In this document: piece after piece, positions 1 to 64,000 of the stretch
How the letters are laid out: every line of letters begins with the position of its first letter
How positions within the stretch are numbered: the stretch's first letter is position 1
From: Malassezia japonica
Taxonomy: Eukaryota; Basidiomycota; Malasseziomycetes; Malasseziales; Malasseziaceae
NCBI RefSeq assembly: GCF_029542785.1
Contig: NC_083378.1
Location: forward strand, 186,001 to 250,000
Direction: 5' to 3'
Length of the DNA: 64,000 bases
Notes under the pieces: generated by a model
Databases searched by the model: none
What the model was told of the DNA's origin: nothing
What the model saw: only the letters and a program-made list of their open reading frames with translations
Position numbers and translations under genes: made by a program

Positions 1-1701
1 GTTCAGCAGGACGTACTTGAGGTGCACACGCACCGCCTCGCCCTCGCGCCGTGCGTGCACGAGAACTTTTCCGTTGCGCGCACGGTCGCCGAGAGCCAGG
101 AGAAAGCTCTCGACGAGATGCATCGCATGGATCTTGCTGTGCCGCGACGGCGCCTCGCCGGCATGCTCACGCAGCCAGAGCTTGTCTGCATAGCCGCTAA
201 TCTGAATAAGCCAGTCCACCTACCTTGCGTGCGATTCGCGTGTCTTTCAGCCAATGCTCGAGGCGCAGGAAATTGATTTGGTCGACCGTTCCTCCCAGCT
301 TGGACACGAGCTGCGCGGTGGTCAGCGTCTCGCTGCCGGGCGAGCGCGACGCACAGAACGCCTGCAGCGCCGCAAGGAGGACCTGGAGCGTGCGCAGGTG
401 CTCCTCGTTCGAGCCTTTGAGGCGCATCGAGAAGCGCGACAGGTACGCATTGACCTGAAAAGCAGCCTGTTCAATGTGCGCCTGCGACAGTTCGATCGAG
501 TAGGTCGCGAGAATCGTGTCGATGAGGTTGTGCGCCTCGTCGATGATGACCACCGCGTCGTCGAGGTCGAGCGCGAGCGCGTCGCGCGCGTCCTGCTGGA
601 GCAAGAGGTTGTATGGCAACGTCACGAGCTCGGCCTGTGCAAGGCTCTTGCGTGCGCCAAAGTACGGGCACGTATGCATCGCCTTGCCGAGCTGTACGAG
701 GTCCTCGATATCGCGCACGTCCGCCTGGGTCAGTGGGACGACGTACCAAGGCGTGGTCGCGGAATGCATTCATTTTGGCCTCGCCGGCCGCGTCCTGTGC
801 GGGAAGGTACGCACACCGCTTCTTGGACTTGCCCGACTCCATCAGCTCCAGGCACCGCTCGTTCATAGCCTCGGTGCCAAACGTGGCACCGACGCGCTGG
901 ACATCGGCATTGATGCACATTTGCTTCCTGCTGCCGAGCGCGACGGTGCGCACGGGGTCGTCGGCGGCGCCCTGCCCAAACGCCGTGCGTTTCAGCTCGT
1001 GGATCAGCTGCGAGAGCTGGCTGTGTGTGCGGCTCGCGTAGTACACCTTTGGCGTCGTCGCCGGCTCTTCGTCCGGTGCCGTGTCCTTTTCCACGCTCGT
1101 CTCGAACGCGGCCATCATGGCACGCACCTCGTCCGAGACGAAAGGGACCTGCGGAGCCGCGTCCTTCGTGGTCCGTTTCTGCTCGTCATAGTCGCCCACG
1201 AGAAAGTCCGAGTCGGACTCGTCGCCGTCGGTGTCGAGCCGCTGTCGCTTCTTGTCCGTGCGCCCCTCGGGCCGTTTCTCGTCCTTGGCCCGCTGCCGGA
1301 TCGCACGGAGCTTTTCGCGAAACTCGGCGTGGCGTGCCTCGAGCGCCTCGCGCTGCTTGGCCTGGTCGTGCGCGACGACCCAGTCCGGCTCCGTGTCTTG
1401 GTCGTCGACCCCCTTTTCCACGACGCCGACTTGAGCGCGCTTGCGATGGAGTGCCATCCATGTAAACGCGCTGCACAAGAGGCTCAGCGTTTTACCCTGG
1501 GTGAGCCGTGCGACGTACGGTGCCGGTGGGGCTTTCAAAGACGCCTGCGCGCCCCTCTTCGATCGCGCGAAAGAGCTCCTCCATGAGCTGCAGCTGGATA
1601 TCATATGCGACCGGGTACGGAAAATGAAACGCGCGTGAGCGTCCCTCGGCATCCTCTCCCTCGCCCGGCACACGCAGCGCGAGCGACGTCGAGTGCTGCA
1701 T
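1..1701 (-). CDS. CHL1: Chl1/DDX11-type ATP-dependent DNA helicase (C-terminal part missing at window edge)
   Basis: Iron-sulfur superfamily 2 DNA helicase of the XPD/FANCJ/Chl1 group, nuclear, needed in this family for sister-chromatid cohesion and fork processing. Exons are 1519..1701, 747..1496, 224..724 and 1..201; the 22-nt introns 1497..1518, 725..746 and 202..223 all sit in phase 0. Seen in order: an N-terminal FPYPVAYDIQLQLM segment, a Walker A P-loop (SPTGT|GKTL, split by intron 1), an acidic linker, YASRTHSQL near residue 210, four spaced cysteines (CINADV, CLELM, RCAYL, TCPYF) fitting the 4Fe-4S domain, and the Walker B DEAH in VIIDEAHNL. The last visible exon reads into a segment ending HLKYVLLN, typical of the helicase core. 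The ATG at 1701 places the P-loop close to the N-terminus, as in the family. About 545 codons are visible; motifs III-VI lie outside the window. The long charged insert between P-loop and YASRTHSQ fits Chl1 better than XPD. Confidence 0.9.
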
Positions 1702-1900
1702 CGCGCGCCGAGAGTCCAGCTCCGAGTGGAGGTCAATTGGCGAAATTGGGCGGAATAGAGTTGGGCTACGGGGACGAAAACTACATCAATTGTGTCGTGA
1801 TGGTATGCAGGGCGAGTTGCTTGAGAGGTCCGGGGTAGCCGTATGGACGCATGACACTTGGCTGACTTGGTCTACAGTACAAGAGTGGTGCGCTCCAAGC
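1702..1900. other. Short intergenic region between CHL1 and GFA1
   Basis: This 199-bp gap lies upstream of the CHL1 start and downstream of the GFA1 stop, so it should hold the CHL1 promoter and the GFA1 3' UTR. I see no ORF, RNA gene or repeat in it. Confidence 0.5.
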
Positions 1901-4072
<2,172 letters not shown>

Positions 4073-4651: not shown

Positions 4652-5412
4652 TTACTCGAGTACGGGGGGGGAACGTTCACGCGTAGGCTCGGACGGGCGA
4701 ACGCCCGGCGAGGGCGGGCGGCGCTCGTAGCGGTGATCGCGGTCGCGGCGGTCGCGGTGGTCACGGTGGCCGCGGTCACGGTCACGGTCACGGTCCTCAC
4801 GGTGCCTCTCGTCGCGATAGCGGTCGTCGCGGTAGCGGTCGTCGCGGCGCTCACCGTAATGCTCGCGTCGCTCGTGCCGCCCATGCCGCGCACGCCGCTC
4901 CTCGTGCCGCGCACGCCGCTCTTCATGCCGTGCGCGGCGCTCTTCGTGCCGCGCTTTGCGTTCCTCACGCGACTCTGCGTCAGGCGGGGGGTATCGTCGC
5001 TTGGAGGGGTCGATCGGTGCGGCGTTGGCGCCAGTACGCGCCGGCGCGTCGTGCGAACCTTCGGCGAGGGCCGAGCCGACACTCGGTGCGCCGCTCAGTG
5101 CGCCGCCGCTACATTAGCATAGATACGTACAGAACCTCGTTCATAGCGTCCTGCTCGGCCTGCTTCACCTCGAGCAGCTCCTTGCGGCGCTTCTCGGCAG
5201 CGGCCTCCTTGTCTTTTACGCTCGCATCGCGGTTGTACCACTGGATATCGCGGCCCTGCTGCCACCGCCCTTTCGGCGCGGCGACCGAGTTGCCTAGATA
5301 GTTTTCGCGGTGCTTGTCCTCACGCACGACATCCCACGAAAAGTCCGCCTGGCCTCCGCGCGTACCGCCACGGCTGCGTCAGATGCTCTACGTACCCCGA
5401 CGATTCGTACAT
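4652..5412 (-). CDS. MMTAG2-like (multiple myeloma tumor-associated protein 2 family) RD/RE-rich protein
   Basis: Exons 5396..5412, 5131..5373 and 4652..5108 with 22-nt introns 5374..5395 and 5109..5130 give a 238-residue protein. The N-terminus (SSGRGGTRGGQ, then KHRENYLGNSV and GRWQQGRDIQWYNRD) matches the conserved signature of the MMTAG2/C1orf35 family, a eukaryotic nuclear protein of poorly defined role. A short coiled KEAAAEKRRKELLEVKQAEQ segment follows. The C-terminal half is low complexity: repeated RARHEER units, then RD/RDD/HRD-rich sequence resembling splicing-factor tails, ending RSPPVLE. Without intron 5374..5395 the Gly-rich start would be lost, which fixes the ATG at 5412. That ATG overlaps the ATG of the divergent BRCA2-like gene. 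The molecular function is unknown; an RNA-related nuclear role is only inferred from the tail composition. Confidence 0.85.
4730..4955. repeat. Degenerate tandem repeats encoding RD-rich and RARHEER-type units
   Basis: Two adjacent low-complexity tracts lie inside the last exon of the MMTAG2-like gene. On the plus strand 4730-4860 is built from variants of GGTCACGGT/GGTCGCGGC, coding for DRDR/DRDH on the minus strand. 4880-4950 holds about three near-identical 21-nt units coding for RARHEER. Copy number could vary by slippage. Confidence 0.6.
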
Positions 5413-7981: not shown

Positions 7982-10599
7982 ATGTCTGCGGACGTCCCTC
8001 GATACGGATTAGACCCTACCGTATCGCTTCCTGCCGCACCTCGTCGTGCGGTGCTCCAGTCGATCTCTGCGCAAGAATCGGTGCCGGTGCAGCGCCAAAC
8101 ATCCGGCGGAGCCGACCCCTACAAAGTGTCGGAGAACATGATACATGCCGAGGCGCAGGCCCAGGTGCGTGGCGCTCGCCGGCAGTTTGCCCCCCTTACG
8201 GGGATGGGCAACATTGTGCCTGCCGCGCAGCAGCCTGCCTCGCCGAAGCGTGCCGACCTGCCCGCGCCGGTGACCAAGGATACGGTCACGCACAATGCGA
8301 GTAAGAAGCCGCAGCTCCCTACCCCGCCCCGGACCATTGTGGACCCCAACGGAAACGAGTACGAGCGCCATGCCATGCTGGGCCAGGGCGGCTTTGCTCG
8401 CGTGTTCCACGTCACGGACAAGTACGGCCAGGACAAGGCGTTCAAGGTGATTGCCAAGAGTGCTATTATGCAGTCCAAGAAGAATCGCCAAAAGATCCTG
8501 GCAGAAATCATGATTCACAAGTCGCTGAAGCATGTGCACATTGTCGGCTTCGAGGACGTGTTTGAGGACTCGGAGAATGTCTACTTTGTCCTCGAGCTCT
8601 GCCACAACGGCAACATGAACGACATTGTGAAGCGCCGCGGCCGCTACCAGGAGTCCGAGGCGCGCTACTTTATGATTCAGATTCTTGCTGGGATCCAGAA
8701 CATGCACAACAACTCCATCATTCACCGCGACCTGAAGCTCGGCAACGTGTTCCTCGACAAGAACATGCAGATTAAAATCGGCGACTTTGGTCTCGCGGCG
8801 CTCCTCAAATACCCCGAAGAGCGCAAGAAGACGGTGTGCGGCACGCCGAACTATATTGCACCCGAGATCCTCTACGACCAGGGCGACGGCCACTCGTTCG
8901 AGGTCGACGTCTGGTCTGTCGGCGTCATTCTCTACACACTGCTCGTCGGCCGCCCGCCGTTCCAGACGAGCAACGTGCAAAAAATTTACGACCGCATCCG
9001 CCGTAACGACTACATGATCCCCCCGGAGGCGAACGTCTCGCACGAAGCGCAGCAGCTCATCCGCCAGATTCTCTCGCAGCGCCCTTGTACGTCGCTTTGA
9101 CTGACCCAGCCGAACGCCCGTCGCTCACGGAAATCATGGACCACCCCTGGTTCAGGGCGGGGACCGTCCCGCTGCACGTCCCGTCGGACGCGGTGCACCA
9201 GCAGCCGTACATCCCTACGCTCACAGAGGGCGAGAGCTTGCGCAACTTTGAGCAGCTCAAGGCCGCCGCCGACTGGCAGTCCGACGCCGAGCTCGAGGAG
9301 GCCGCGCCAGAAGTCCCGGCCAAGTCCACACGCGAGGACCTCCGCGTGCTCGAGGCCGTGGAAGAGAACCGCGACAGGATCGACCGCGAGTTCCAGCAGG
9401 CGATCCACCCGGGCAGCCCGATCTCGACGCTGCTCAAGGTCGGCCGCCAGCCGCTGGTCAAGGCGAACGTCCCGGCGCCGACGACCGCCACGGCGCTCAC
9501 AAACAAGCTGGGCCAGATGTCGCTGCGCACGCAGGACAAGGAGAACGCACAACGTGCGCACCGCACGGCGCCTACGCCGACCGACGACGCGCACCTGCGC
9601 CAGATGACCCAGGTCGTGGCCGGCACTGCGCCGACGCGCCCCCTGACCAGTATGGAGTTGATGGTGCACTATCTCAACGATGCGTTGCACCACTTTGATG
9701 CCGAGGACGAGAGCCCCCATGTGCCGCGCGACGCGGACAATGAGGCGGTGACCATTCCCCTCCCGGTCGTGGTCGAGGGCGAGGAAGGCGAGCTCCGTGC
9801 AAAGCCCGCGGCGCCCCGCCAGTTTATCATCTCCTGGCTCGACCACTCGGAGAAGTACGGGCTGGGCTATGCGCTGTGCAACGGCACGGTCGGCGTGCAC
9901 TTCCGCGACTCGACAAGCATGGTGCTGGCGCCCCGCCGCCAGACCTTTGACTATGTATACAACGTGCGCCTGCGCACCACCGACGCTGCGCCGCGCACCG
10001 ACCAGCTCCGTCGCGAGAACTATGCGATTCCGGCGGGGGCCGTGCAGGGCGCGGTGTCCGAGGCCGAGTGGCTGCCCCGCGAGCTGGTGAGCAAGTTTAA
10101 GCTGATGCGCTTCTTTGAGAGCGAGATCATGGAGCGCCTGTACGGCGCCGACAGCCCCCTCACCTACGTGGACGAGGAGCTTGCTGCAGGCATGGGCTTT
10201 GTCCACAAGTGGTACCGCTGCAAGCAGGCGATCGTCTTCCGCCTCAGCAGCGGCACTGTGCAGTTCAACTTTTACGACCATACCAAGCTCTTCCTGTCGT
10301 GCGACGGCCTCGTCGTCTCGGCGATCGACTCGCCGGACAAGACCGACGGCGTCCCGGTCCTTCGCACCTGGACCCTGGCCGAGATGGTGGCGATCGCGCA
10401 CCCGCGTCGCTCTGCCGCCGAGGCCGCCGCGGCGCAGGCGGTGGCCGGCGACTCGGCGCGGGACCGCTTCCCGCACTTTTTCCACACCAAGCCGAGCGAG
10501 CGCCGCTTCGTGCGCCAGCTGATGAAGAAGCTGCGCTACGTCCGCGACGTGCTCATGACCACGACCTCGGCGTCGCACGCGGCAGCAGGCGCCGCCTAA
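7982..10599 (+). CDS. CDC5: Polo-like kinase (Cdc5/Plo1)
   Basis: Ser/Thr kinase controlling mitotic entry, exit and cytokinesis. Exons 7982..9086 and 9110..10599 are separated by a 23-nt intron; the product is 864 residues. The kinase domain spans about residues 127-377: GQGGFARV glycine loop, FKVIAKS lysine, HRDLKLGN catalytic loop, DFGLAA, and activation segment KTVCGTPNYIAPE with the conserved Thr. The intron falls just before ERPSLTEIMDHPWF at the end of the kinase domain; without it the frame stops immediately. Two polo boxes follow: PB1 from about residue 606 (SWLDHSEKYGLGYALCNG) and PB2 from about 735 (WYRCKQAIVFRLSSGTVQFN). The linker contains RPLTSMELMVHYL and the destruction-box-like RQPL region. 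Lies 24 bp from the convergent decarboxylase stop. Confidence 0.95.
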
Positions 10600-12223: not shown

Positions 12224-13649
12224 ATGGCGCGTTCCGCCGCGGCCGAGGCATGGCGTGCGGACCTGGAGCGGCTGTACGCTGGACGTGATCAGGGCACGAC
12301 GTACACATGGGCGCTCGACGACGGCCAAGAGTCGGCACATGCAGGTAGGTGGCCTCTCTGATCCAGTGATGGTCCACGCACGGCTGCATGGCGTGCTGCG
12401 CCGATGGCTGCTCCGCTCGCCCTGGCCATGGAAACGCAAGGGGTCGCTGCGGGGCGCACGCGCGGCACGGCTTGTGCGATGCGTCGTCCGGTGGATGTAT
12501 ACCGATAGAGGAGGGGACTGGATCGACGAGCTCGGCACGCACCTCGCAGCACCGCGCGAGGAGGTCTGTGCGTCGATGCAGCCAATCCACAAGGACCTAC
12601 TGGAAGCGGCCAGAGGCGCACGGGGCACAGCCATCGGACAGGGGGTGCAAGTGGATGCGGATTTGTACAAGGCGCGGTGCACACCGAAAGCATCGACGCT
12701 CCGCCACGAACCCGCGCGCATCGTTGCGCAGATGATCTATGCGGCCGACATCCGTACGGAGCTGCGTGACGCACAAGAGGCACTTGATCCGACGTTTCTC
12801 GAGGCGGCCGAAACTCTAGATGCGCTGCACGTCCGCGGCGCGTCCAAGTACGTACGCATGCTCGCATGGGAGCGGACCACGGCCTACCCCGGCCTCGGCA
12901 CCCGCGCTGCGGCGCTCGTGGAGAAGGATGCCGACCTGTTTCCAATGCTCCTGCCGCTCCTCGCTTCGGAGTATGTAGCGCAGTGCTGCACGGACCTGGG
13001 TGCATTCTCTGCAGCGCACCGCGACGCAGTGGTCGCTGCCATCGGCGCGAATCCAGATGCGCTCGTCGCGAGCGTTGCAGCACACCCGCATCCTCCGTAC
13101 GCCCCCCTTTTTCTGAAGCACTTTGAGGCGGCGGTCGCGACACCGACGTGGAAAGAGCTCGTGCGCAAAGGCGACCGTGCTATCGTCGCTGTACTTGGCC
13201 TCGTATCGCACGACCTCACCCCGTCGAACGCCGGCGTGCGGTACGAGCAGCTCGTCGGCCACGTCCTCCTTGCTGACGAGCCGCCGTGGCCGAGCGGGTC
13301 GGTCTTGGCCTCGCTCGAGGAGCTTCGCGATACAATTGTGCGGTACCTCCAGCACCACTGGGTCGCGGTGCGTGCCATGCACGGATTTGAGCCACTGGCC
13401 AACTGGTGCATCAAAGAGCTGAGCGCCGCGCTCGACGTCGATGCGCACGCGCTACGCGAGCATTCCAAGCCGAGCAACCCCCAAGTGTCGGCGCGCTCCT
13501 CCGTCTTTGCCATGACGTCGGCCGGCCTCGGCGATCGCGGCGCGGAGCGCGACCCACCCGAGCTGCGCCGCGGCCCCGTGAGCATGCACGCTGCAGTGGT
13601 GAACAAGCAGGCAGCGCGTGTCGCTGTTGCTACGGGTCATGTAAACTAA
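12224..13649 (+). CDS. Uncharacterised predicted alpha-helical protein
   Basis: Exons 12224..12344 and 12367..13649 with one 22-nt intron (donor GTAGGT, branch CTGAT) give 467 residues starting MARSAAAEAWRADL. I do not recognise the family. Most of the protein looks helical and repeat-like (ALDPTFLEAAETLDALHV, KYVRMLAWERT, LFPMLLPLLASEYVAQCC, YAPLFLKHFEAAV, ELRDTIVRYLQHHWVAVRAM), as in helical-repeat scaffold proteins, and there is no transmembrane segment or signal peptide. The C-terminal 60 residues are polar. A very weak resemblance of layout to NELF-C/D (TH1) proteins was considered but is not supported by any clear motif. The stop codon TAA at 13647..13649 overlaps the stop of convergent PRI1. 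Confidence 0.7.
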
Positions 13650-15118: not shown

Positions 15119-15876
15119 ATGCCGCGGTGGAATGGGGCGCGGACCAAGATCCAGCTGAAGCTCGCGATTCAGCGCGCGCGTATGCTGCAGGAGAAGAAGG
15201 AGTCGCTTGCGAAGCAGGCGCGGCGTGAGATTGCAGACCTCGTGCAGCGAGGCAAGATGGAGACGGCGCACGTCAAGACCGAGTCGCTGATTATGGAGGA
15301 CGTGCACATTGAGTTGCTCGAGCTGCTCGAGCTGTACTGCGAGACGCTGCACGCGCGGTTTGCGCTGCTGGAGCTGAATACGTACGTCGCCTATCTAAGA
15401 CAGGACAGAGCCCGAGGACGCAGTCAAGGAGCCGCTCATGGGACTGCTGCATGCCGCGCACCGCACCGAGCTGCCCGAGCTGCATGTCTTGCGCGATATG
15501 CTCGCGGCGCGGTACGGTGCCGAGCTCGCGCAGGCGGCGCTCGACAATGCGGATGAGTGTGTCTCGCCGCGGGTCACTAAAAAGCTCGCGTTCCACATGC
15601 CGCCGGAGGAGCTTGTTCATGCGTATCTAAGCGAGAGTAGGTCGAGCGACTAACCCAGTATGCAAAGCGTACGAAGTGCCATTTGGCGACGATGTAGAGA
15701 CAGGGACAGAAGTCGTGCAAGGCGGGAACGAGGGTGCGACAGCGACCGACGCTGCAGACGCGCCCGAGAAAGCCGCCCCAAGCGCCCCTGCCGACACATC
15801 GCCCCCGGCCGCTGCCGCGCCGTCCGAATGGGATGCGCTCATGAACCGGTTTGCGGCGCTCAAAAAACGTTCATAA
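15119..15876 (+). CDS. IST1: IST1 (ESCRT-III-associated regulator)
   Basis: ESCRT-III-like protein that recruits or regulates Vps4 at endosomes. Exons 15119..15381, 15404..15636 and 15659..15876, with two 22-nt introns, give 237 residues. The IST1 domain is clear: KIQLKLAIQRARMLQEKKE, ARREIADLVQRGKMETA, ESLIMEDVHIELLELLELYCE, then TEPEDAVKEPLMGLLHAAHRTE, ELHVLRDMLAARYG and PPEELVHAYLSEICKAYEVPF, the last two residue blocks being joined only after removal of intron 2. A short acidic/Ala-rich linker leads to a C-terminal WDALMNRFAALKK, which resembles the MIM1 motif bound by MIT domains of Vps4. Only 16 bp separate its stop from that of the convergent PH-domain gene. Confidence 0.93.
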
Positions 15877-15892: not shown

Positions 15893-18398
15893 TTATGCGG
15901 CCATTGGCGTGGGGTGTGCAGCCGACGAGTGCCGGTGCGTGTCGCGTGGCGAGCGGTCTCTGCCGAGGGCGACCGCTTCGCCGCCACGGCGCCGGCGCCG
16001 GCGGCGCGGGAGCGTCATAAACTTGGGCATCGGCCGGCCGTCGAGGTCCATCGACACGTTGATCGCGGCCTGCAGCGCCTCGATCCAGTCCACCACATGG
16101 AAATCGTTGCGGGTCTGAATCAAGAACTGCTCGCCTTCGAGGCGGACGCGAATAACGTGGCGGCGCTTGGTGTAGTCCGCCGCCAGTCCGCATTCGCCGC
16201 GCTGTAACGAATAAGAGCGGATATGGTGCTCTTTCAGTGCCTGTTTGAGCGTGTCGAGCTGCGCAGCGACCCCTGGATCGGCCTCCTTGGCGTGCGATGC
16301 GAACGACAAGAGCGTCGAGCCGAGCGCCAGGCCCTTGTTCACCAGCCCGTTGTGCCAGTGGTGCTCATCGTGACCCGGCAGGTCGTGAGCGTTGGGCGTG
16401 TGGTCTGTCGGCTCGCACGACTCGCTCATCGGCACCGTGTGCACATGCGTCGTGGCATGCAGGTCCCACAGCGCCACGGGGTCGGAGCCCTTGGCGTACA
16501 AAGAAGATATATCGGTATCGTAGAGGTGCAGCGTCGTGCCATGCAGGACAAAGTAGCAGCGTTCCCAGCTGCGCACCTTGGCCGGCTCGCCCGGCGCACT
16601 AAGCTCCATCTTGCGGGGCAAAAAGCCCTCAATGTGCACGGTACACTGGTAGTTGGGCAGATCCTCCTCGCCGTCCTTGGGCGAGGGCTGGAGGACCCAC
16701 GGCTCGTGGAACACCTCGCCAAAGCTCACCAGGCGCGGGCGGCGCGAAATCGAGTAGCGCTGCGTCGGCCCGTGGCCCAAACTCTGAAGCGATTGGTTCA
16801 CACGCTGCAAGATCGATTGGGGATCCACCGGGTTGAAGGAACGGGGACTGCGCGGTGCGCCCCAATCGAGGTCCTTCATGTCCTCGGTCGAGGGCGACTC
16901 TTGCGCGGCAGCCTCTCTCTCGGCACCTTGGTCTTGCGACAGACGCAGCTGTGAGGCCGCACGGCGCTTCCAGAGCGGCGTGCGCGTAGGATCCGACGTG
17001 CGTCCCATGCGCCCGAACGAGTCCTGCATCTCTTCCGGCTCCTCGGCCTCGGCGAGGCTCAGCGGCCCCATCTCGGGGGGGCTCTCTGCGATGGGCGAAT
17101 GGGCGACCGACGCGCGTGCGGATGCTTCGTGGAAGTACTCTTCCGCCGGCGTTCCCGGCACCGTCGCGACGTACGGCGAGACAAAGAGCGAGGGCGAGCG
17201 CGAGACGGTCGGCGTACCGCGGTGCGACGGCGCAGCCGATGCAGACGGCGAGCCGGGGCGCGACGTCATCCACAGCGCAGGCTGGCCGATGGACGAGGCA
17301 CGGCGCCGGAACGAGATGGCCGACGGCGTGAGCGGCGGCGCTGCACCGCCTGTCCCGATCGGCGTCGTGGCGAGCGATGCACCGGGCGACGCGCGGCGGG
17401 GCGAGTCGGAAAAGTAGCTCGTCTCGCCGTGCTCCATTGGCGTCATGGACAGGCTGCCACGGAGCGATGCGTGGCTCTCGCGGGGCGACGGCATGCCCCG
17501 CAGCGTCGCATGGCTCTCGCGGAGCGACGGCGACGGCAGCGCCGACGAACGCAGCGTGCCGCGGCGGCTCAGCCCGCCCCCGCCGGCCGACTCGCGCGCG
17601 CTTATGTTGAGCGACGGCCCACGGCTGTGCGACATGCGGCGCGACCAGCTCTGCGCTCCAGCAGCGCTCGGCGTAGCCGAAATGCGGCGTACCGAACTCG
17701 GTCCCGCGCCTTGGTCCGCGTACTCGTGAAAGCGAGGCGTCATGGTGCCCGACTGGTACGACGTCGACTGGCGCGGCGTGGCAAAGCCGCTCGTCGGGAT
17801 GGGAATCTGCTCAGCGACCGAGTGCGGCACCGGATAGAGGAACGGCATGCGTGCCTCGTGCTCCTCGCGTGCGTGCACATGCTCGTCCTCGTCCTCGGTC
17901 TCGGTCTCGGTATCGTCGGCCGTGTCGGTCTCGTCTTCGACCGAGGTGTGGCTCTCTGTGCCTGACTGGAGTGAGGCAATGCTCTGCGCGCTCGACGCCA
18001 TGTGCTCTGTAGGTGAGAGCGACGAGACGATCGCATCAGGCAGGGCGGGCGCCGCGTGCGGCTGCTGGATATTTTGGGGCACCGCTGCGCCGTACTCTGG
18101 CGCATTCAGTGGCTCGGGCGGCTGCGTGCGCGGCTGCGTCGAGGTCCACCGCAGCGCCTTGTGGTTGATCGGATCATCCGACACTGCAATCTTGGGCGCG
18201 GGCTGCGGCATCTCTGTACGGGGCCGCGACGCACTCAAGCCGCTCATGCCGGGCGGCGCACGTGTGTCTTCTGGCGCACGCTCCTCCGTGGTGCTTTTGG
18301 CGAGCAGTGCATTTTGCTTGGATGGCGGCGGGATATTGGTGACCTGTGTGAGCCATAACACCTACCCAATTCCAACGGCTGCCTTGCTCTTCGGACAT
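15893..18398 (-). CDS. PH-domain protein with long disordered N-terminus
   Basis: Exon 1 is 33 nt (18366..18398, MSEEQGSRWNW), intron 18344..18365 is 22 nt, exon 2 is 15893..18343; product 827 residues. About 570 residues are low complexity and rich in Ser, Pro and Thr, with an acidic patch (DETDTADDTETETEDEDE) and SRRGTLRSS-type basic phosphosite-like stretches. A PH-like fold follows from about residue 578: VHIEGFLPRKMEL, then RSWERCYFVLHGTTLHLYD, a long loop, and RHVIRVRLEGEQFLIQTRNDFHVVDWIEALQAAINV ending at about 785. This suggests membrane phosphoinositide binding or a scaffold role, known only by domain. The tail is Arg-rich (PRRRRRRRGG). I do not recognise a named orthologue. It shares a 159-bp divergent promoter with RFA1. 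Confidence 0.82.
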
Positions 18399-26947: not shown

Positions 26948-28127
26948 ATGCGGAGCGTGGCCGTGCACCATGCGCTGCGTGCGCCGCTGCGCCTGGCGCG
27001 TGTGCCTGTGTGCGGCTATGCGACTGTCGCTAGGCCCCCGTCTAAGCGTGTGATTTTGTCAGGCATCCAGCCGACCGGCGTGCCGCATGTACGTCGCGCG
27101 ACTGACCCAGCTCGGCAACTACCTCGGCGCCCTCAAAGCATGGGTCGACCTGCAGAACACGGCCAAGCCGGACGATGAGCTGTTCTTTTTCATCGTCGGC
27201 CTGCACGCGCTGACCGTGCCGCAGGACCCCAAGCGGCTCTTCCAGGACCGCCGCAACATGATGGCCGCGCTCGTGGCGATGGGCATCGACACCGAGCGCT
27301 GCACGCTCTTTCACCAGGACGAGGTGCCGGAGCACGCCGAGCTCATGTGGATTTTGTCGTGCATCACGTCGTTTGGTCGCCTCGAGCGCATGACGACGTG
27401 GAAGTCAAAGCTGCAGACGCTCCACGATAGCGAGCAGGTGTCCAGCGCGCAACTCCAGACCGGCCTATTTACCTACCCCGTGCTGCAAGCCGCCGATATC
27501 CTTCTATACCATGCGACGCACGTCCCGGTCGGCGAGGACCAGACGCAGCATCTCGAGCTGACGCGCGACCTCGCGCAGCAGTTCAACAACGCCGTGAAGA
27601 AGCCCTACTTTTACCAGCCCAACTGCCTGCTGACGCCGTCGAAGCGCATCCTCTCGCTGCGCAACCCCGACCAAAAGATGTCCAAGTCGGCGCCCGATGC
27701 CAACTCGCGCATCCTCGTCACCGACTCGCCCGCCGAGATCCACGCAAAGGTCAAAAAGGCCGTCACCGACAGCGAGCGGAGCGTGACCTTTGAGCCGGAG
27801 CGCCGCCCCGGCATGAGCAACCTCGTGTCGATCTTGGCGGCGCTGGGCGGCGGCACGCTCGCGCCCCAGCTCTCGTCGCCAAACGCCTCGCCGGAGGAGG
27901 TCGCGCGTGTGCTCGACGTGGCGACCGGCGGCTCGGGTGCGCAGCTCAAGAGCATCCTGGCCGAGAGCATTATCGAGGCGCTGCGCCCCTTCCAGGACGA
28001 GTACGCGCGCCTCATCCAGGAGCCCGAGCACCTCGCGCAGCTCGAGGCGCGCGGCCGTGACAAGGCGCGGGAGCGTGCGTCGGCGACGATGCGCGACGTG
28101 CGCCGCCTGCTCGGTCTTTCAAAGTAG
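26948..28127 (+). CDS. MSW1: Mitochondrial tryptophanyl-tRNA synthetase
   Basis: Class I aminoacyl-tRNA synthetase charging mitochondrial tRNA-Trp. Exons 26948..27088 and 27111..28127, joined over a 22-nt intron in phase 0, give 385 residues. The N-terminus (MRSVAVHHALRAPLRLARVP) is Arg/Ala-rich with no acidic residue and looks like a mitochondrial presequence. The catalytic core starts VILSGIQPTGVPH|LGNYLGALKAW, where the intron splits the HIGH-like motif (HLGNYLG). The KMSKS loop is intact (NPDQKMSKSAPD, near residue 235). FHQDEVPEHAELMWILSC and AADILLYHATHVPVGEDQTQHLELTRD are typical of bacterial/mitochondrial TrpRS. The length is that of mitochondrial, not cytosolic, enzymes. The stop is 38 bp from the convergent NHP2 stop. 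Confidence 0.94.
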
Positions 28128-50641: not shown

Positions 50642-51555
50642 ATGGAGGAGCCAGCGGTGCCTGCGGGGCGCTCCATCTTTGGAGTTGATCCAATGGACGA
50701 CTTTGCTGTTTTGATCGCAGACTGTATCTGGGACCACTGTCAAAACTTGTCGCATGTCGAGGTGCGTAGCGACGCTAATGTCAGATCGAGGCCAAAGTGG
50801 GGATTTTGATCGACCGCAACACGAATGCGCGTTTGCAGCTCCCTGTGTTTACCGAAACCGTGGTTGATGCAAAGCAGCTTGGTCTGCGTTTCGAGAGCAA
50901 CATGTCGATGGACCAGCACCGCCGTTTCAACCAGCTGCTGAATCACTTGGTGGCCTACAGTGCGAACCAAGCGCCGAGCGAGCGGGTGACGTACAAGCAC
51001 CAGAAAGAAGTGGACTACTTTTACGATGAACGTATGCCTGATACGGGCAGTGTCGTCCACCTGCGTGTCACGCGCGATGCACAGACACTCCAGATCAAGC
51101 CAGGAGGTGTTGTGACCAAAAAGCGGGTTGCCGATATCAACGTCTACGCGCCAAACCGCCCTTTTGACTACCGTATCTCTATCAATACCGAAACGCCGAT
51201 GCCGCCTCCGCCCGAGGACAGCCGCCCGACGTTTATTCGCGAAAAGGACCGCCTTTCGTATGCCCATCAGAATTTCAACGTGGACCTCACGCAAGTCATC
51301 CTGCCCAACAATGTACGTTTTATGACTGACATCCAGCCCCAGGAGCCTGTGCATGAACTGGAAGTGGAGATTCGCGACTCGGTCGAGTTGATGCAGCATG
51401 CGTTTGTCGCCCGCGGGCAAGAACAGAAAGAGTTCCAAGAATGGACTCCCTTCGAAGATACAGTACTCATCCTGCTTAACAATGTCCGCTTGCTCATTCG
51501 GTACGTGCGAATTCGCACCTAGCTAACCTACAGGAACGCAGGCGGCCCAGCGTAA
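50642..51555 (+). CDS. CET1: mRNA 5'-triphosphatase (mRNA capping, Cet1-type)
   Basis: Removes the gamma phosphate from nascent mRNA as the first step of capping; metal-dependent tunnel enzyme of fungi and protists. Exons 50642..50761, 50785..51500 and 51534..51555, with introns of 23 nt (donor GTGCGT) and 33 nt, give 285 residues. The metal-binding glutamates of motif A are split by intron 1 (HVE|IEAKVGILIDR). Conserved strands follow: TYKHQKEVDYFY, HLRVTRD, FDYRISINTE, EKDRLSYAHQNFNVDLTQV and motif C HELEVEIRD. Intron 2 lies seven codons before the end and contains a stop, so retention would change only the last residues. The protein lacks the long N-terminal extension of S. cerevisiae Cet1, leaving little more than the catalytic domain. 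The guanylyltransferase is not encoded nearby. Confidence 0.93.
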
Positions 51556-51628: not shown

Positions 51629-51733
51629 GGCAAGATGGCCGAGTGGTTAAGGCGGTGGCCTGCTAAACGCACGACGATTTAGTCGGTAAGCCATTGGGTT
51701 CTGCCCGCGTGAGTTCGAATCTCATTCTTGTCG
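51629..51733 (+). tRNA. tRNA-Ser (anticodon GCT) with 23-nt intron
   Basis: Acceptor stem GGCAAGA pairs with TCTTGTC, discriminator G. The D-arm (GGCCGAGTGGTTAAGGC), long variable arm (GGGTTCTGCCC-like) and T-arm (GAGTTCGAATCTC) are all present, as expected of a class II serine tRNA. The anticodon loop CTGCTAA is interrupted after position 37 by an intron of about 23 nt (51666..51688). It decodes AGC and AGU. A and B boxes are internal. A 12-T pol III terminator follows. Confidence 0.93.
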
Positions 51734-51871: not shown

Positions 51872-52909
51872 TTACTTGCCGAGCCAGGGAAGGATGTAGC
51901 GCAGACGCTCGAGCACATGCTGGTCAATGTGCTCGGGCGACGTCATGACGCTGAACTTCATGCTGCCCGCGGTGCTCCTGAGGATCTTGGAGTCCTCGTC
52001 GGCAACAAGGGAGCTCACCTTGTCGACCAGCGCCTTGGTCACCACCTGCGAGGCCGTAACGTTCGCTTTCAAGCTCTGCATGACCTCGGCGACGTTCACG
52101 GACTCGGACGACTCGCGCCAAGCGTCATAGTCGGTCGCTAGGGTAAGCCACGGTAAAATGAAATACGTACCGGTCGCGATCAGCACGTAGCTCAGCTCCG
52201 CCTCGCGCGCAAGCTTCGCCTCGGGCAGCGCCGACATGTTGATAATGTCACCACCCAGCTGGCGGTACATGATCGACTCGGCGCGCGTCGAGAACGCGGG
52301 GCCTTCCATGCAGACAACCGTCTTGTTAGAGTGCACCTTGACGCTGGGCGAGTGCTCTGCAAGCGTCTCGCGGATGCTGCGTGTGAGTTGCGAGAAAGCA
52401 CGTACATGCCCTCCACGATCGGGCGCAGGATGGTGTCGTAAGGGTCGCCGAACGTCGCGTGCGCAATGACCGCGTGCTCCTCGCCTTCACCAAAGTAGCT
52501 GGCACGGCGCACACCCTTGGTACGATCGATGATCTGCGACGGAACGACAAAGTCCTTCGGCGCGATCTCCTCGCGCAGCGAACCAACCGCCGAGAAGGCT
52601 AGGATGGTGCGCACGCCGAGGTGCTTCAGCGCGGCAATGTTGGCCGTCGACGGCACGTGCGACGGCGAGATCGAGTGCGTCAGGCCGTGGCGCGCAAGGA
52701 ATGCGACAAGCGTGCCCGAATCGGTGCGCGCGATGCTAATCGGCGACGACGGGAAACCCCAGGGCTGCGTCAGAATAGGCACGTACCGTCTTGGGGCGCA
52801 CGGAATCGATGATCTCGATACCCTCCAGCTTGTACAGGCCGGATCCACCGATCACGCCCACAAGGATGGGAGGGCCGTTCCACTCTGCTTTCGGATCCGT
52901 AGTCGCCAT
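51872..52909 (-). CDS. MEU1: S-methyl-5'-thioadenosine phosphorylase
   Basis: Splits methylthioadenosine from polyamine synthesis into adenine and 5-methylthioribose-1-phosphate (methionine salvage). Exons 52787..52909, 52406..52764, 52171..52376 and 51872..52137, with introns of 22, 29 and 33 nt, give 317 residues. Landmarks: [85 protein letters not shown] and [26 protein letters not shown], then VLIATATDYDAW. The last intron (52138..52170) is 33 nt and in frame with no stop, so an unspliced reading would insert eleven residues inside the strongly conserved IATxTDYD. An alternative upstream ATG lies at 52966, adding 19 residues; the shorter start keeps the family length. Confidence 0.94.
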
Positions 52910-53015: not shown

Positions 53016-53952
53016 ATGGCTCGTGCGTCCCAGCCGGTGTATGTCGCGCCGGGGCATGGTGAGGGCGACGCCGCGGCGTACGAGGATGCGAATGTACATG
53101 CGTACGTCTCGGTCTCTTACGCAGGGTATACGATGTGATTGCCTCGCACTTTTCCAGCACGCGCTACAAGCCGTGGCCGCTGATCCCCCAGTTTCTCGCG
53201 ACCTTTGCGCCAGGTTCTGTCGGTGCTGATCTCGGCTGTGGGAATGGCAAGTACTTGCACCTGCGTTCTGCGCTCGGGGACGAGCACGATGCGACACTCG
53301 TGACGATTGGCTCCGACCGCTGTGCGCCGCTCGTCGACGATGCACAGCACAACTTTCCCCCCAGCGACAGCGGCAAAGAGCGCTGGCAGGAGGTCGCAGT
53401 AGCTGATGCGCTCTGCAGCCAGCTGCGTTCGGCAGCCTTTGTACGTCGCGCGACTGACGCAGGATTATGCTATTAGCATCGCGACGATCCATCACTTTTC
53501 CACGCCCGAGCGGAGGATGCGGGCCGTACAAGAGATGATCCGAGTCGTGCGCCCTGTTGCGCCAGGTGGGCCGAGCGACGCGCTGGGCCAAGGCTCCGGC
53601 CGCTTCCTCATCTTTGTGTGGGCGTTTGACCAGCGCGGCGGCGGACGTCGCAAGTTTGACTCGGTGCTGGCCGCCGACGACGACGCACAGGACGTGCTTG
53701 TGCCGTGGGTCATGACGCCCCAACATACCCAGGAAGATACCGTGGATCAGGTGCACCAACGATGTACGTATCGATGCTAATGGTATAGACTATCATCTAT
53801 TTCGCGAAGGCGAACTCGAGAGCCTCGTCGAGTGGGCCGCGCGCGATCTCGCGGGGCATGCGCCGTCGGACGCACACCTCGCCGTTCCGCAGATCGCCAG
53901 TGGATGGGACAAGGGAAACTGGTGGGGCGTATGGCGCGTCGAGCACGCTTAA
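53016..53952 (+). CDS. TRM9: tRNA (carboxymethyluridine-34) methyltransferase Trm9
   Basis: SAM-dependent methyltransferase that, with Trm112, finishes mcm5U at the wobble base of certain tRNAs. Four exons (53016..53101, 53125..53440, 53463..53763, 53789..53952) with introns of 23, 22 and 25 nt give 288 residues. Seen: [20 protein letters not shown] (signature of the family, joined over intron 1), the SAM motif [12 protein letters not shown], then AVADAL, then after intron 2 [26 protein letters not shown] and [12 protein letters not shown]. The C-terminus, reached only after intron 3, is [15 protein letters not shown] ... [12 protein letters not shown], close to the family end. The stop TAA (53950..53952) forms the palindrome TTAA with the stop of convergent TIM54. 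Confidence 0.94.
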
Positions 53953-55583: not shown

Positions 55584-56481
55584 ATGCCGCAACGAGGCGC
55601 TGCTGAACCACGCAGCCTCGCGACCCGGACGGGTTTGCTGACACGCGCCGATGGAAGCGGGCAATTTGCCTACGGTACGTTATACTTGCTCACGCAGGCG
55701 CCCAAGCCAGTCTCGCGTCCGTCACTGGGCCGGTTGAAGTTCGCATGCGCGACGAGCTCACGGATTCCGCCACGTTCCAGGTTATCGTGTCGCCGCTCGA
55801 AAACATTCCAGGCATCCCTACCAAGGCACTCTCTGCCGAGTTCCACGAGCTGTTCAAGGCTGTATTGCTCCTCCATCGCCATCCGCGTACCCTGATCCAG
55901 CTGGTGGTGCAGACGACGAGCAAGCCGCCTGTTGCGACCCCGACGGTGAACCTGTCCATGAACCAACCCCAGGAAGCAAGCTCTTCCGAGGCAAAGGAGC
56001 CGGAAAAGCGCCGTGCGCCACTGCTCCTGGGACCCGACATGCCGTTCGAGGCGTCGGAGATCGCTGCTTCCATCAACGCATCGACGCTCGCGCTGATCGA
56101 TGCTGCTATACCCCTTCGTGCGACGGTCATTGCAACTTCGTGCGCCGTGCTCGAGATTGACGACGCCCTGAGGACACGCGATGTGGATCCATCGCAGAAG
56201 TCGCACTGGTGCGTCGCGCCCACTTACCCAGTGTCGTCGTGGACCCTTCTCCCGAAGAGGAAAAGGTGGCCCTCAGCTGCCACGTCTATGCGTTTGCCTT
56301 TTCCGGCTACAATGCACTGGATGCATCGGGCAACGATGAATCCACGGCACAGCTCGTGTACTATGTTGGCTCTGGCAGCACGTCGGCCAAGCAGCGCACG
56401 CTCCTGTTCTCTACAGCGGAGGATGCTGCATTCGAGACCCTTTCCCACCTCCGTAACTCGCTCGCCGCGCGGATAGAATGA
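55584..56481 (+). CDS. RRP46: Exosome core subunit Rrp46 (RNase PH-like)
   Basis: RNase PH-fold ring subunit of the RNA exosome, nuclear and cytoplasmic. Exons 55584..55674, 55698..56208 and 56232..56481, with two 23-nt introns (donors GTACGT and GTGCGT), give 283 residues. Seen: TGLLTRADGSGQFAYG|AQASLASVTGPVEVRMRDEL, with intron 1 between; then ATFQVIVSPLENIPGIPTKALSAEF, HRHPRTLIQLVVQTT, ASINASTLALIDAAIPLRATVIATSCAVL and, after intron 2, VVVDPSPEEEKVALSCHVYAFAF. The layout follows Rrp46/Mtr3 rather than Rrp41; Rrp46 is preferred because of the LxxFPRT-like LHRHPRTLIQ block. An insert of about 35 polar residues splits the domain. Catalytic phosphate-binding residues are not expected in this subunit. 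Confidence 0.88.
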
Positions 56482-56588: not shown

Positions 56589-56670
56589 GCGCCAATGGTT
56601 TAGTGGTAAAATACAGCTTTGCCATCCCAAAGATGTAGCTGTGCCGGGGGTTCGATTCCCCCTTGGCGCA
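56589..56670 (+). tRNA. tRNA-Gly (anticodon GCC) with 11-nt intron
   Basis: Acceptor GCGCCAA pairs with TTGGCGC, discriminator A. The D-arm is TGGTTTAGTGGTAAAATACA, the anticodon stem CAGCT/AGCTG with loop TTGCCA|T, and the T-arm GGGGG TTCGATT CCCCC. After position 37 an 11-nt intron (56625..56635) interrupts the loop. It decodes GGC and GGU. Confidence 0.93.
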
Positions 56671-56679: not shown

Positions 56680-57009
56680 AATGCCAACTCTTTTTTGCCT
56701 CCATTTTGTTCTAATTATGGTGCGCGGATTCGGCCCAACACTGACCGCTGCATGTTGCATGCCAAGCATTCCAGCTTTCCCCAACCATGTTTATTTTTAG
56801 CGATCTGTAGTCCTGAGAACCAAAAATTGGAATTGCACTGCAAAAAACCTATATATGTTACGTACTACCGGGAAGTGGGAGGAGAAGTGGGAGGAATTGT
56901 CTGTGGCATAGGGCTGGAGGGATTAAGCACAGCCACCCAGCCGGGGTTCCATCAAAAGAATGTAGATTGGGTTGTGAAATATCGCACACACGAATACACA
57001 ATCCGCTCA
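56680..57009. other. Intergenic region between tRNA-Gly and membrane-anchored protein gene
   Basis: About 330 AT-richer bases without a supported gene; it should hold the 3' UTR of the minus-strand gene that ends at 57010. No tRNA, snRNA or repeat was recognised. Confidence 0.4.
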
Positions 57010-60454: not shown

Positions 60455-60564
60455 GGTGCGATGATCGATGATTGGACACGGCCTCTGATTGGCCCCATTT
60501 TCATTTGTCGCAGCGCCGTGGCCGAAAAGTCCCATGTGGTACGTGCGCGATAGACCCTATGCCA

Positions 60565-63004
60565 CTAGCTACGCTCCGACGTACGTGTTTTCTTCTTGCG
60601 CGTCACCATCTTGGGCTGTACGGCAGAATGCGCAGCCTGGGTATCCGATGGCGCGGGTGACGAGGCGGACGACGAGCTGGGTGCGGCCGCAGCCGGCTTC
60701 TGCATCAGGTCCGACAGGTCGAGCTGGACGATGGGGATGCCCTTGAGGTCGTCGTCTTCGGCGGCAGGGGCAGGCGTCTTGGTGCGTGCGGTTTTTTTCA
60801 CTTTAGTGCGCTTAGAAGCTGCCTTCTTTGGTGCGCGCGCCGCCTCTTCAGGCTCGTACCGCGGCATGGACTCGGGCACGGCTTTCGGCACTTTGAGCTT
60901 CGGCGCCGGCTCGACGAGGTCCAGGATGGGCTTCCACGCGTCCTCCGGCATGATCCATGCGTGCAAGTCGAACGAGGCAGGGAGCGTCGCGAGTGCATCT
61001 TCGTCGTCCTCGCGCATATAATACAGCGGCTCGAGGAGGTGCAATGCACGCGGCCCTTCGCGGCCCTGCTTGGTGGCCGCTTCGTCGTCCCACGAGTTTG
61101 CCTCGACTTCGGGCGCCGCTGCGGGTGCCGCGGGCGCCGGCCCCTCCTTCGCGAGATCGTTCTTCAACAGCGTAAAGAGCTGGAGCGACTCTTGCGCACG
61201 CTCGTGCACGTCCGAGTCCTGGTGGTGTACGAGCGGCTCGAGCTGCGCGACAAGGTGGTCGGTCAGCGCCTCGAGTTCGTCTCGCTTTTCCGCATCCCAC
61301 ACTTCAGACAAGGAGGCTGCATAGTGGGCGTAGAGTTTCATAGTACTCTGTATGACCACCGCCACGGTGTTGGCCGGGAGCTCACGGAGTGTGTCCTGCA
61401 TCAGGATGCGTGCGAGCTGTTGGGGCGCGTCGAGGTAGTCGGGGTATTCGCTGCAGATCCAAGCGCCGGTGCGCAGCAGCTCGTGCGTCGGGCATGCACG
61501 GTCAAAGAGTTCCTCGTCGTTTTGCAGCAGCACATGCTGAAAGTGGCGGCATGCTTCGGGCCGAAGCGACGCAAAGCGCCATACGATATCGATCATTTGG
61601 TCGGCGACGCTCTGCGCGATGCTCACGTCCACAGTGCGAATCAGGCGCTGGAGCGTCGCGAGGTACCATGCGACGTCGGTTACATGCCCGTACTCGTGCG
61701 CACTGCCCAGGTCGAGGATGCATTCGGCGACTTGCACGCGGAAACCGGCCATTTCGTCGGTGTCTATCGTGGGCAGCGTCTCGGGCGCGGTATCCACGGC
61801 CTCGTTTGTATCGAGTGCCGACTGCAGCGCACTGCTTGCATCGCGCGCGACGGCCACAGCGTCCATCTCTTCAAGGAACTGGACAAACGTATCGAGGATG
61901 GTACGCAGCGACGCGCGCGACGACAGCTGGCACACGAGGTCGAGCGCACGCAAGCGGATTGTCATGTCTGGGTGCCGAATGCATGCGAGGATCGTGTCCT
62001 GGTGCTGCGCGACGAGCCCCGGATGCGTCGGCACGAGCTTGGCGAGCGCGAGCAGCGCAATGTACTTGAGGTTCTGGTCCGAGTCCTCCAGAAAGCGGCC
62101 GAGGTTGTCGACGCAACGCAGCGCGAGGTCCTCGCTGCCCGCCCCCTCGAGCATGCCTCCTATAATCGCCGTGTGGATGCACTCGTACAAGACGCTCATC
62201 GCCGGCGTCGTCGAGATGATCTCCGAGATTGGCCGCAGGAGCTTGCGGACGAGGCGCGGCTCGACGCGCGCGAGCGCGCCAAATAGCTTCACGACCTTGA
62301 TCAGGAGCCAGTTGTTGCTCGTGTTCGTCAGGATCTCGAAAAGCTGCGGCGACAGCGGGACAAACGGCGCCGGGTTCCTGCGGGCCAATTCGCACACGGC
62401 GTTCACGGTCGCGGTGACGACGCCCTGGTCGGGGTCGCACAAGAGATCACGCATGCGCTCCCAGGTGCGGTCCAAAATTTGCGGGTACTTGACGATCGCC
62501 GAGTAGAGCACGAGCACGGCGCGCTTGCGGACGCGCGCCCGGGAGTGGGTGAGCATCACGGCGATGTCTTCCGAGAGGTGCTGAGCGAGTTCCTGTGTAA
62601 TGACATGCGAGAGACCATTCAGCGCCGCGAGCACGTCGAGTGGAGCGGCCGAATGCAGGTCCTGTGTGAGTCGATCGGCGTACCTTTTTGATCAAATTGG
62701 TCGCGAGAATCAGCACTTCTGTGTCTTCCGAGAAGCACAATGCCGCGGCGAGGTAGCCGATATGCTTCACATGGTACTTGGACGAGGCCATCGCCTCGAG
62801 CATGCTAAACGACGCGCTCTTTACCTCGTAGCCGAGCATGCGGAGGTAGGCGAGCTTGAGCACTGCTTCCGCCTTGACGTCCATGTCGGCGCTTTTCACC
62901 TCGGTGCGGATTTCGTCCAGCATACTGGCAATGTACTTCGCCTCATCCTTGCCGCGGTGCGAGCGCAGCCCCTTGATGAGCGTCGTGAGCGACTTTTCGA
63001 ACAT
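60565..63004 (-). CDS. APL5: AP-3 adaptor complex delta subunit
   Basis: Large subunit of AP-3, sorting cargo from Golgi/endosomes to the vacuole. Exons 62684..63004 and 60565..62661, with a 22-nt intron (donor GTACGC), give 805 residues. The N-terminal adaptin trunk is clear: MFEKSLTTLIKGLRSHRGKDEAKYIASMLDEIRTEVKS, LKLAYLRMLGYEVKSASFSMLEAMAS, HVKHIGYLAAALCFSEDTEVLILATNLIKK|DLHS, VRKRAVLVLYSAIVKYPQIL and NTSNNWLLIKVVKLFGALARVEPRLVRKLL. The C-terminal 180 residues form a charged, Pro/Ala/Lys-rich hinge ending in basic KKKTRT. Yeast Apl5 is longer (about 930), so the ear region seems reduced or absent here. DLI-type N-terminus and length support delta rather than AP-1 gamma. Confidence 0.92.
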
Positions 63005-63122
63005 CGTCCACGCCCCGGGCGACGGTGCGAAGCGAAGCGAGCGCGACGAGCACGTGGTAATGTGGAGGTTGACGGACGTGCGCCGATTCGTATATAAGCT
63101 CGATGGAGTCTACTTGGTGTGT

Positions 63123-64000
63123 CTACTGGCGCACGGCGCGGTAGAAGGAGGCGTACATGTTCACGTTGTCAATCGGCTTGTTCGTCTCGCGGATGTGCAC
63201 GGGCGAGACACGGAAACCAGCCGCCTCGAAGCGCTCCGAGTACCAGGGGTGCTTCGCAGCGCTGCGCCAGAACACGATGCCGCCCTTGGCAATGACGCGT
63301 GCAAGCTCCACGACCTCGCGGTCGAGGTCCGAGATGGACTTGTCCTCCTCGTCGCGCGCCTTTTCGAGGCTCGGGAGCGCGACCGAGGCCGGGATCGGGT
63401 CGAACCAGTCCATGTGGTCCATGAGGATGGCGCGCGTCAGCGAGCTGTCCTGCATGCCGCGCAACACCGACACGATCGAGTCGGTGTGCAGGCGGAACGA
63501 GTCGAGCGCCTCGCTGTTGTTCGCCTTGAGCTTTTCGAAAGCGTCCCGCTTGAGGTAGAGCGGGCAGCTCTCCTTGGTGTAGTTGCCCATCAGGCAGAGG
63601 CGGTAGTGGTAGTTTTCCGTCGAGAGCAAGGAGCGCGCCGGGACCGCGTCCAGCGTGTCGATGGCAAACTGCTCCACACTGCCCTCCTTTTTGAAGATGT
63701 TGAGCTGGTTCATCGGGACGCCGAGCGCGTTCCAGAGGAACGCGGGGTTCGCCAAAAAGAGGCGAATCAGCGTCTCGTTGATGATCGTTTTGCGCACCTT
63801 GGTGTCCCAGATCTGCTTTTGCTCCTCAATGGAACGGGTGGTGCACATCTTGTCCACGTCCTTGCGCACGCCCATCAGCTGGAACGCGGCCTTAGCGAGA
63901 CGAAGCGCGTGACCCGAGTAACCACGGAAGTAGAACGCCTTATCGAACGACGAGTTGTTCGTGCGCCAGAACTGGTATGCGTGCGAAGACAGGTTCGGCG
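63123..64000 (-). CDS. BTA1: Betaine-lipid synthase, DUF3419/BtaA-like C-terminal part (partial)
   Basis: Partial: the N-terminal part lies beyond the right edge; 292 codons are visible and end with TAG at 63123..63125. The segment matches the DUF3419/BtaA family, which transfers the 3-amino-3-carboxypropyl group of SAM to diacylglycerol in synthesis of the betaine lipid DGTS. Seen: SHAYQFWRTNNSSFDKAFYFRGYSGHALRLAK, RLFLANPAFLWNALGVPMNQLN, YHYRLCLMGNYTKESCPLYL, TRAILMDHMDWFDP, VVELARVIAKGGIVFWRSAAKHPWYSERFEAAGF. The C-terminal position of the BtaA-like domain agrees with fungal two-domain Bta1 proteins, but the second (methyltransferase) domain is not in the window, so a stand-alone DUF3419 protein is also possible. 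Confidence 0.85.
   Translation of the reverse strand, partial: PNLSSHAYQFWRTNNSSFDKAFYFRGYSGHALRLAKAAFQLMGVRKDVDKMCTTRSIEEQKQIWDTKVRKTIINETLIRLFLANPAFLWNALGVPMNQLNIFKKEGSVEQFAIDTLDAVPARSLLSTENYHYRLCLMGNYTKESCPLYLKRDAFEKLKANNSEALDSFRLHTDSIVSVLRGMQDSSLTRAILMDHMDWFDPIPASVALPSLEKARDEEDKSISDLDREVVELARVIAKGGIVFWRSAAKHPWYSERFEAAGFRVSPVHIRETNKPIDNVNMYASFYRAVRQ

Follow-up and report, generated by a model that had tools for sequence, protein, structure and literature searches.

Introns of the fungus Malassezia japonica are, with high probability, ordinary U2-type introns that carry strong splice signals and are pressed against a geometric limit on the distance between donor and branch site. The stretch of DNA analyzed here (the window) comprises 64 kb (C9:186001-250000) of an 8,433,779-base genome in nine contigs, and its GC content is 55-68% per 4-kb block. 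The original prediction had described nineteen window introns of exactly 22 nt, seven of 23 nt and none shorter, with a sharp lower limit well under the usual fungal lengths. Genome-wide counts bear out such a limit. The 22-nt motif GTACGT-N7-CTNAC-NCAG has 922 + 862 = 1,784 matches in the genome and none when the pattern is reversed, which was the control for the genome-wide motif counts. When the first spacer of the same motif is cut to 0-6 nt (15-21 nt in total, NCAG), there are 5 genome matches versus 3 in the control. The 23-nt form with NNAG is found 220 times, versus once in the control.

The same step was seen with a gene finder that was run with a flat intron-length prior (lengths up to 200 nt) on both strands of a 264-kb test set, consisting of the window and C1:1-200000, with reversed signals as decoys. 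At a score of at least 11, 167 introns were modeled versus 16 decoys, and at a score of at least 13 there were 120 versus 4. Among the 167 high-scoring introns, 77 are 22 nt, 25 are 23 nt, 44 are 24-40 nt, 20 are longer than 40 nt and one is 15 nt. In a second version of the gene finder, from which the branch-point term was removed and in which lengths of 8-80 nt were allowed, 69 of 192 introns are 22 nt long and 9 are shorter (the reversed control gave 76 introns, 2 of them of 22 nt and 15 shorter). The spike at 22 nt thus persists under a flat length prior, with or without the branch-point term, and the modal length lies at or below about 25 nt with a sharp lower edge, as in ultra-short-intron lineages. 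Extrapolated from (167-16) introns per 264 kb, the whole genome would hold about 4,800, which is a very rough figure.

Donor, branch site and acceptor all have a strong consensus (GTACGT, CTNAC and CAG), so that the weak or absent branch consensus reported for ultra-short-intron lineages is not seen here. Across all 246 introns modeled in the test set, for which GT and AG were required at the intron ends, G+5 is present in 98%, T+6 in 92% and YAG in 93%, and the branch site has C in 96%, T in 95%, A in 93% and Y in 99%. The branch consensus is complementary to the GUAGUA segment of U2. The branch A also lies at a fixed short distance from the AG without a polypyrimidine tract, as in the class formed by Yarrowia, Trichomonas and Giardia, because an A at the sixth or seventh position from the end leaves no space for such a tract.

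Donor-branch spacing and the 21-nt class

The length of these introns can be divided into a spacer (from GTRNGT to the first CTNAY) and a tail (from CTNAY to the first YAG), which were tabulated against each other over the 264 kb. Spacer 7 has 82, 11, 1 and 1 matches for tails 1-4, and spacer 8 has 19, 4, 1, 2 and 1 matches by rising tail. Spacers 5 and 6 have 0 and 1 matches, and the control has none for spacers 6-8. The branch A is at position 17 in 93 of the 167 high-scoring introns, later in 71 and earlier in 3; counted from the other end, it is sixth in 109 and seventh in 22, and nearer in none at a score of at least 11.

The tail can be shortened further in a small class of introns. The pattern GTACGT-N{0,9}-CTNACYAG has 48 genome matches versus 2 in the control, and 39 of these are 21 nt long. 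The 21-nt class keeps the 7-nt spacer, and only the branch-acceptor tail is shortened, with the branch A fifth from the end. The branch is CTCAC in 36 of the 39; at the variable position, the 22-mers of the test set have A, C or G and in some cases T. Among 23 examined 21-mers, retention would put a stop into the reading frame in 5, and in 18 the predicted phase stays the same. Two of those with stops have a protein match across the junction, in a TsaD/Kae1-family gene and in an SSM1-like nucleotidase; the nucleotidase has a one-residue gap near the junction and no Pfam match. For a 21-mer in METTL16, the Pfam score (31.4 versus 29.5 bits) did not decide. As 21-nt introns exist elsewhere in the genome, 22 nt was rejected as an absolute minimum. 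The step at 22 nt claimed for the window is sharp, and what has to be changed in the claim is the total length: 22 nt is near the limit, and the rule is the spacing from donor to branch A. The donor-branch spacer is thus the hard limit, and the branch-acceptor part is a second, softer ruler.

Intron candidates in the window

Eighteen window sites fit the 22-nt pattern GTRNG[TC]-N7-CTNAN-N-YAG, and six further sites have one altered branch base. Of these six, 34587..34608 (TTAAC) was accepted because a gene model places an intron at the same donor, which gives the predicted nineteen candidates. At 51501..51522 the donor is also modeled and the branch site is weaker, and this site was not counted; the remaining four fall outside modeled introns. 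Seven 23-nt candidates, the predicted number, start at 9087, 20542, 36556, 50762, 53102, 55675 and 56209, and the eight example introns of the original prediction all run from GT to AG on one strand. Stricter gene models, which favor no length, include 16 of the 19 22-nt candidates and 5 of the 7 23-nt candidates; at 12345, 15637, 34587, 20542 and 55675 they picked another end or no intron. The candidates described individually are as follows.

202..223, minus strand: 22-nt intron (GTAGGT, N7, CTTAT); motif and gene model, junction without homology
725..746, minus strand: 22-nt intron, CHL1/FANCJ-like helicase gene; motif and gene model, inside the FANCJ alignment, two-residue gap just before the junction
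1497..1518, minus strand: 22-nt intron, FANCJ-like helicase, PTGT|GKT (presumably Walker A); gene model, ungapped FANCJ alignment across the junction
3965..3997, minus strand: 33-nt intron, GFA1-like gene (by reading); gene model
4037..4069, minus strand: 33-nt intron right after the ATG (M|CGIF), GFA1-like gene (by reading); gene model
5109..5130, minus strand: 22-nt intron, MMtag-domain gene; gene model, Pfam MMtag at residues 9-88 with the junction at 86
5374..5395, minus strand: 22-nt intron; motif and gene model
9087..9109, plus strand: 23-nt intron, protein kinase gene (by reading); gene model
12345..12366, plus strand: 22-nt motif match, intron uncertain; one model used another acceptor, the stricter model no intron
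15382..15403, plus strand: 22-nt intron, Ist1 gene (branch CTAAG, A at 17); gene model, Pfam Ist1 spans the junction
15637..15658, plus strand: 22-nt motif match; the gene model has a 73-nt intron at the same donor
18344..18365, minus strand: 22-nt intron; motif and gene model, 129 residues scanned without a Pfam match
20193..20214, plus strand: 22-nt intron, RPA1; aligns with PDB 4gnx across the junction without a gap
20308..20329, plus strand: 22-nt intron, RPA1 (ETFN|DTNRVRY); ungapped structure-protein alignment
27089..27110, plus strand: 22-nt intron, TrpRS, GVPH|LGNYLGA (presumably the class-I signature); ungapped alignment to mitochondrial TrpRS (5ekd)
29777..29798, minus strand: 22-nt intron, cytochrome-b5-domain gene; gene model, Pfam Cyt-b5 (34.5 bits) spans the junction
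29871..29892, minus strand: 22-nt intron; motif and gene model
34587..34608, minus strand: 22-nt candidate, TTAAC branch; the gene model instead ends the intron at 34567 (42 nt)
34739..34760, minus strand: 22-nt intron, WD40-type gene (PLAA/Doa1-like by reading only); motif and gene model
36556..36578, minus strand: 23-nt intron, same WD40-type gene as 34739..34760; gene model
50762..50784, plus strand: 23-nt intron, mRNA 5'-triphosphatase gene; gene model, Pfam mRNA_triPase spans the junction
51313..51336, plus strand: 24-nt intron, mRNA 5'-triphosphatase gene; gene model and Pfam
52138..52170, minus strand: 33-nt intron, MTAP; no gap at residue 229 versus 12 relatives
52377..52405, minus strand: 29-nt intron, MTAP; public proteins of relatives differ in length at this site
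52765..52786, minus strand: 22-nt intron, MTAP (PKT|PWG); ungapped across the junction versus relatives
53102..53124, plus strand: 23-nt intron, methyltransferase gene; gene model
53441..53462, plus strand: 22-nt intron, methyltransferase gene; gene model, Pfam Methyltransf_11 spans the junction
56209..56231, plus strand: 23-nt intron; gene model
62662..62683, minus strand: 22-nt intron, adaptin gene (GTACGC donor); gene model, junction inside Pfam Adaptin_N (first 256 residues scanned)

Protein evidence was found at 11 of the 19 window 22-mers, where matches run on past the splice junction, weakly so at two. Once the 22-mer is removed, the junctions of TrpRS, the helicase PTGT|GKT, both RPA1 sites and MTAP PKT|PWG are ungapped; at the second helicase junction (725..746) the two-residue gap lies beside the junction. 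Pfam domains cross the junction in the Ist1, Cyt-b5, methyltransferase and adaptin genes, and MMtag reaches only about two residues beyond it. The other 8 of the 19 have motif support, and 5 of these also have a reading frame in a gene model. Retaining 22 nt shifts the frame. Unspliced control scores were computed for two sequences, SNRNP27 and one METTL16 fragment; SNRNP27 scores 38.1 bits unspliced versus 90.2 bits with one 23-nt and one 22-nt intron removed. A crude frame test fits exact removal of 22 nt at 42 of 58 sites, where one third would be expected by chance.

Among the 120 matches listed for the spliced MTAP protein, the closest come from Malassezia obtusa (87%), M. furfur (84%) and M. 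yamatoensis (82%). At the site of the 29-nt intron, the public MTAP of M. caprae has 2 additional residues and that of M. equina 6, and that of M. cuniculi lacks residues (P0008, P0009, P0013). These differences are possibly intron annotation errors in the relatives. The window also contains two Rfam tRNA matches on the plus strand (51629..51733 and 56589..56670), of which ARAGORN reports the second only; their lengths suggest tRNA introns.

Splicing machinery and competing explanations

The U2 gene is located at C2:763486-763677 (123.1 bits) with its branch-recognition segment (GUAGUA) intact (GUGUAGUAUCUGUUCU), and the U6 gene at C9:407313-407417 (80.8 bits) with the ACAGAGA box present. A gene whose model has no introns was assigned to U2AF65 because it matches solved structures of this protein over the tandem RRMs and in part of the C-terminal domain; in six-frame pieces, it scores 224.4 bits with the NCBIfam model, under the cut-off of 310.3, and Pfam finds one RRM. 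A PRP40-like gene with WW and FF domains (partial model) is also present, and it adjoins the U2AF65 gene, the two being divergently transcribed (L035, C9 ~360833-365026). The base at donor position +4 has been associated with METTL16 and SNRNP27 (PMC10581693). A METTL16-like gene with NPPF (L031) and SNRNP27 (L033) are both present, and therefore the +4C donors described below cannot be put down to their loss, which was rejected as a cause. The original prediction had also suggested a splicing apparatus adapted to near-minimal introns; this was not shown. The components examined look canonical, namely the ACAGAGA box of U6, the branch-recognition segment of U2, U2AF65, SNRNP27 and the METTL16-like gene.

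In standard pairing, U6 pairs with about positions 4-9 of the intron and U2 with about positions 13-18. Two spacers set the length of these introns, one of at least 7 nt from the donor hexamer to the branch pentamer and one of 1 nt from that pentamer to CAG. With U6 on positions ~4-9 and U2 on ~13-18, about three bases would stay free. Position 17 most likely marks the shortest loop in which U6 and U2 are both paired and the branch A still contacts the donor; little length could go, because both helices must be kept. Deletion pressure may push introns to this limit, and selection would halt them there.

Several observations weigh against this account. Without a filter, the gene finder yields 246 introns versus 213 in the reversed decoys, and because the decoys are nearly as many, only the score discriminates real introns from decoys. 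Spacers 0-4 combined have 11 matches in the 264 kb versus 7 in the control. One of the 3 high-scoring introns with a branch A before position 17 is a 15-nt candidate (GTGCGT...CTCAC..CAG, C1:43025-43039, in L013) with a gene-finder score of 14, which may be coding because its length is divisible by three. Sixteen of the 58 22-mers fail the crude frame test. A search with the Rfam U1 model gave no match in the genome, and its controls were also empty. What the sequence shows is the motifs, the two spacers, the cut-off, the protein matches over the tested junctions and the canonical U2 and U6; that these sites are in fact spliced, and that the cut-off reflects the geometry of the spliceosome, are inferences.

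The geometry is also difficult to reconcile with human splicing. The human spliceosome reportedly requires about 50 nt between donor and branch, about 52 nt spans the undistorted B complex, and one test RNA no longer allowed assembly at 35 nt (PMC6692369). Because a donor-branch distance of 16 nt misfits this geometry, the early steps in M. japonica probably differ in space or time from the human ones. Assembly would have to depart from the human B complex, with early exit of U1 or shorter U2 and U6 helices as examples. In humans, Smu1 and RED assist short introns. A more specific proposal, that the major spliceosome of this yeast routinely acts on thousands of introns with 16 nt from donor G to branch A and so follows a different early-assembly route (in U1-U2 co-occupancy and B complex), is tentative and judged somewhat more likely wrong than right.

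The step could instead come from a U1 or an early-assembly factor that has changed in this lineage, and not from a limit of the catalytic core. Of the 246 modeled introns, 72% have C at donor position +4 and 2% have A, and a +4C makes a poor pair with textbook U1. The genome does not contain the textbook U1 5' end (ATACTTACCT) as a string, since none of the 57 genome matches to ATACNTACCT (25 in the control) has T, and the Rfam U1 model gave no match. Of these 57 loci, 54 were viewed and 40 scanned with Rfam (E<=1), and no U1 was found; by eye, several are antisense copies of intron donors. The string ATACNTACCTGGC has one genome match versus none in the control, with no U1 feature by eye. Set against this, no positive control worked for the Rfam U1 model, neither an ordinary nor an altered U1 gene was identified, and in Cryptococcus neoformans a published survey's own models likewise failed to detect U1 (PMC10581693). 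The U1 of M. japonica may thus have diverged, or the assembly may lack it. The absence of U1 is thus a lead only, and an altered U1 is a doubtful source of the step.

A limit on total intron length, such as a length-sensing step, would agree with the commonest length, 22 nt, being close to the minimum. However, in the 264 kb there is no 22-nt form with spacer 6 and a tail of 2, versus 82 with spacer 7 and a tail of 1; as the equal-length arrangement is absent, the limit acts on spacing and not on total length. The 21-nt introns also keep the 7-nt spacer (39 of 48 matches), and a total-length limit is therefore largely refuted and improbable. Descent from recent copies of a mobile introner-like element could account for the donor, branch and length common to many introns, but it is highly improbable: 57 of 58 sampled 22-mers are distinct, with at most 0.48 bits at each of the inner 7 positions, so that sequence-similar copies at many sites are not seen, and the 23-, 24- and 25-nt forms in the 264 kb grade from the same motif. 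That the cut-off is an artifact of the search motifs, as the splice-signal models were trained on the sequence they were applied to, or of avoiding lengths divisible by three, deserves hardly any credence, since the free-length model without a branch point yields the same spike, the 15-21-nt NCAG forms are in total not above control, and the 90 high-scoring introns of other lengths are distributed 26/39/25 over 3n+1/3n+2/3n without strong depletion of 3n.

Comparison with known systems

Among the closest known systems are the introns of the ciliate Stentor coeruleus, which are 15-16 nt long. Their length is hard and quantized as in M. japonica, the branch A is nearly always base 10 of the 15-nt or base 11 of the 16-nt form, with six nt from A to the end in both organisms, and the U6 ACAGAGA and the U2 branch-recognition site are conserved in both (PMC9505925). 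Conversely, Stentor introns are AU-rich, without a strong branch consensus and with a 10-nt donor-branch loop (PMC9505925), whereas those of M. japonica are GC-rich, with strong donor and branch consensus, a 17-nt loop and a long upper tail, and occur in a fungus. The Bigelowiella natans nucleomorph and Paramecium share with M. japonica very short introns of narrow range in intron-dense genomes, although donors largely limited to GT(A) and no branch-point signature are reported for them (PMC2483917, PMC5014332); M. japonica has three strong sites. In Yarrowia lipolytica, the branch is likewise fixed at a very short distance before the AG without a polypyrimidine tract, but introns are few (719 studied), the donor-branch part is long and the median intron is 204 nt (PMC2483917).

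Very short introns have already been published for Malassezia (PMC7426719). The median intron of M. restricta is 30 nt (PMC9241646), mean lengths are 37.2 nt in M. restricta, 68.1 in M. arunalokei and 79 in M. globosa, and Malassezia gene prediction has been run at a minimum intron of 20 and then 15 (PMC9241646, PMC6473144, PMC7426719, PMC4634964). The accessible parts of these four papers contain no spacing rule, branch geometry or 22-nt step, and no report of the spacing rule was found in the literature searched, a proteogenomics study of M. sympodialis lying outside that scope. Within this literature, the combination, in a fungus, of a hard limit on donor-branch distance with strong consensus at all three sites seems to be new.

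It has been proposed that short-intron genomes drift to weak signals and that intron-poor genomes are strict (PMC2483917). Many introns that sit at a hard limit with strong signals strain this proposal; as a counterpoint, M. sympodialis has been ranked as intron-poor for a fungus (PMC8476143). Malassezia genes will be misread wherever a gene finder assumes a longer minimum intron. Two rulers can be separated here, a hard one from donor to branch and a softer one from branch to acceptor, and well over a thousand introns with a donor-branch distance of 16 nt, together with canonical U2 and U6, make M. japonica a natural system for asking which steps of assembly the human distance of about 50 nt serves.

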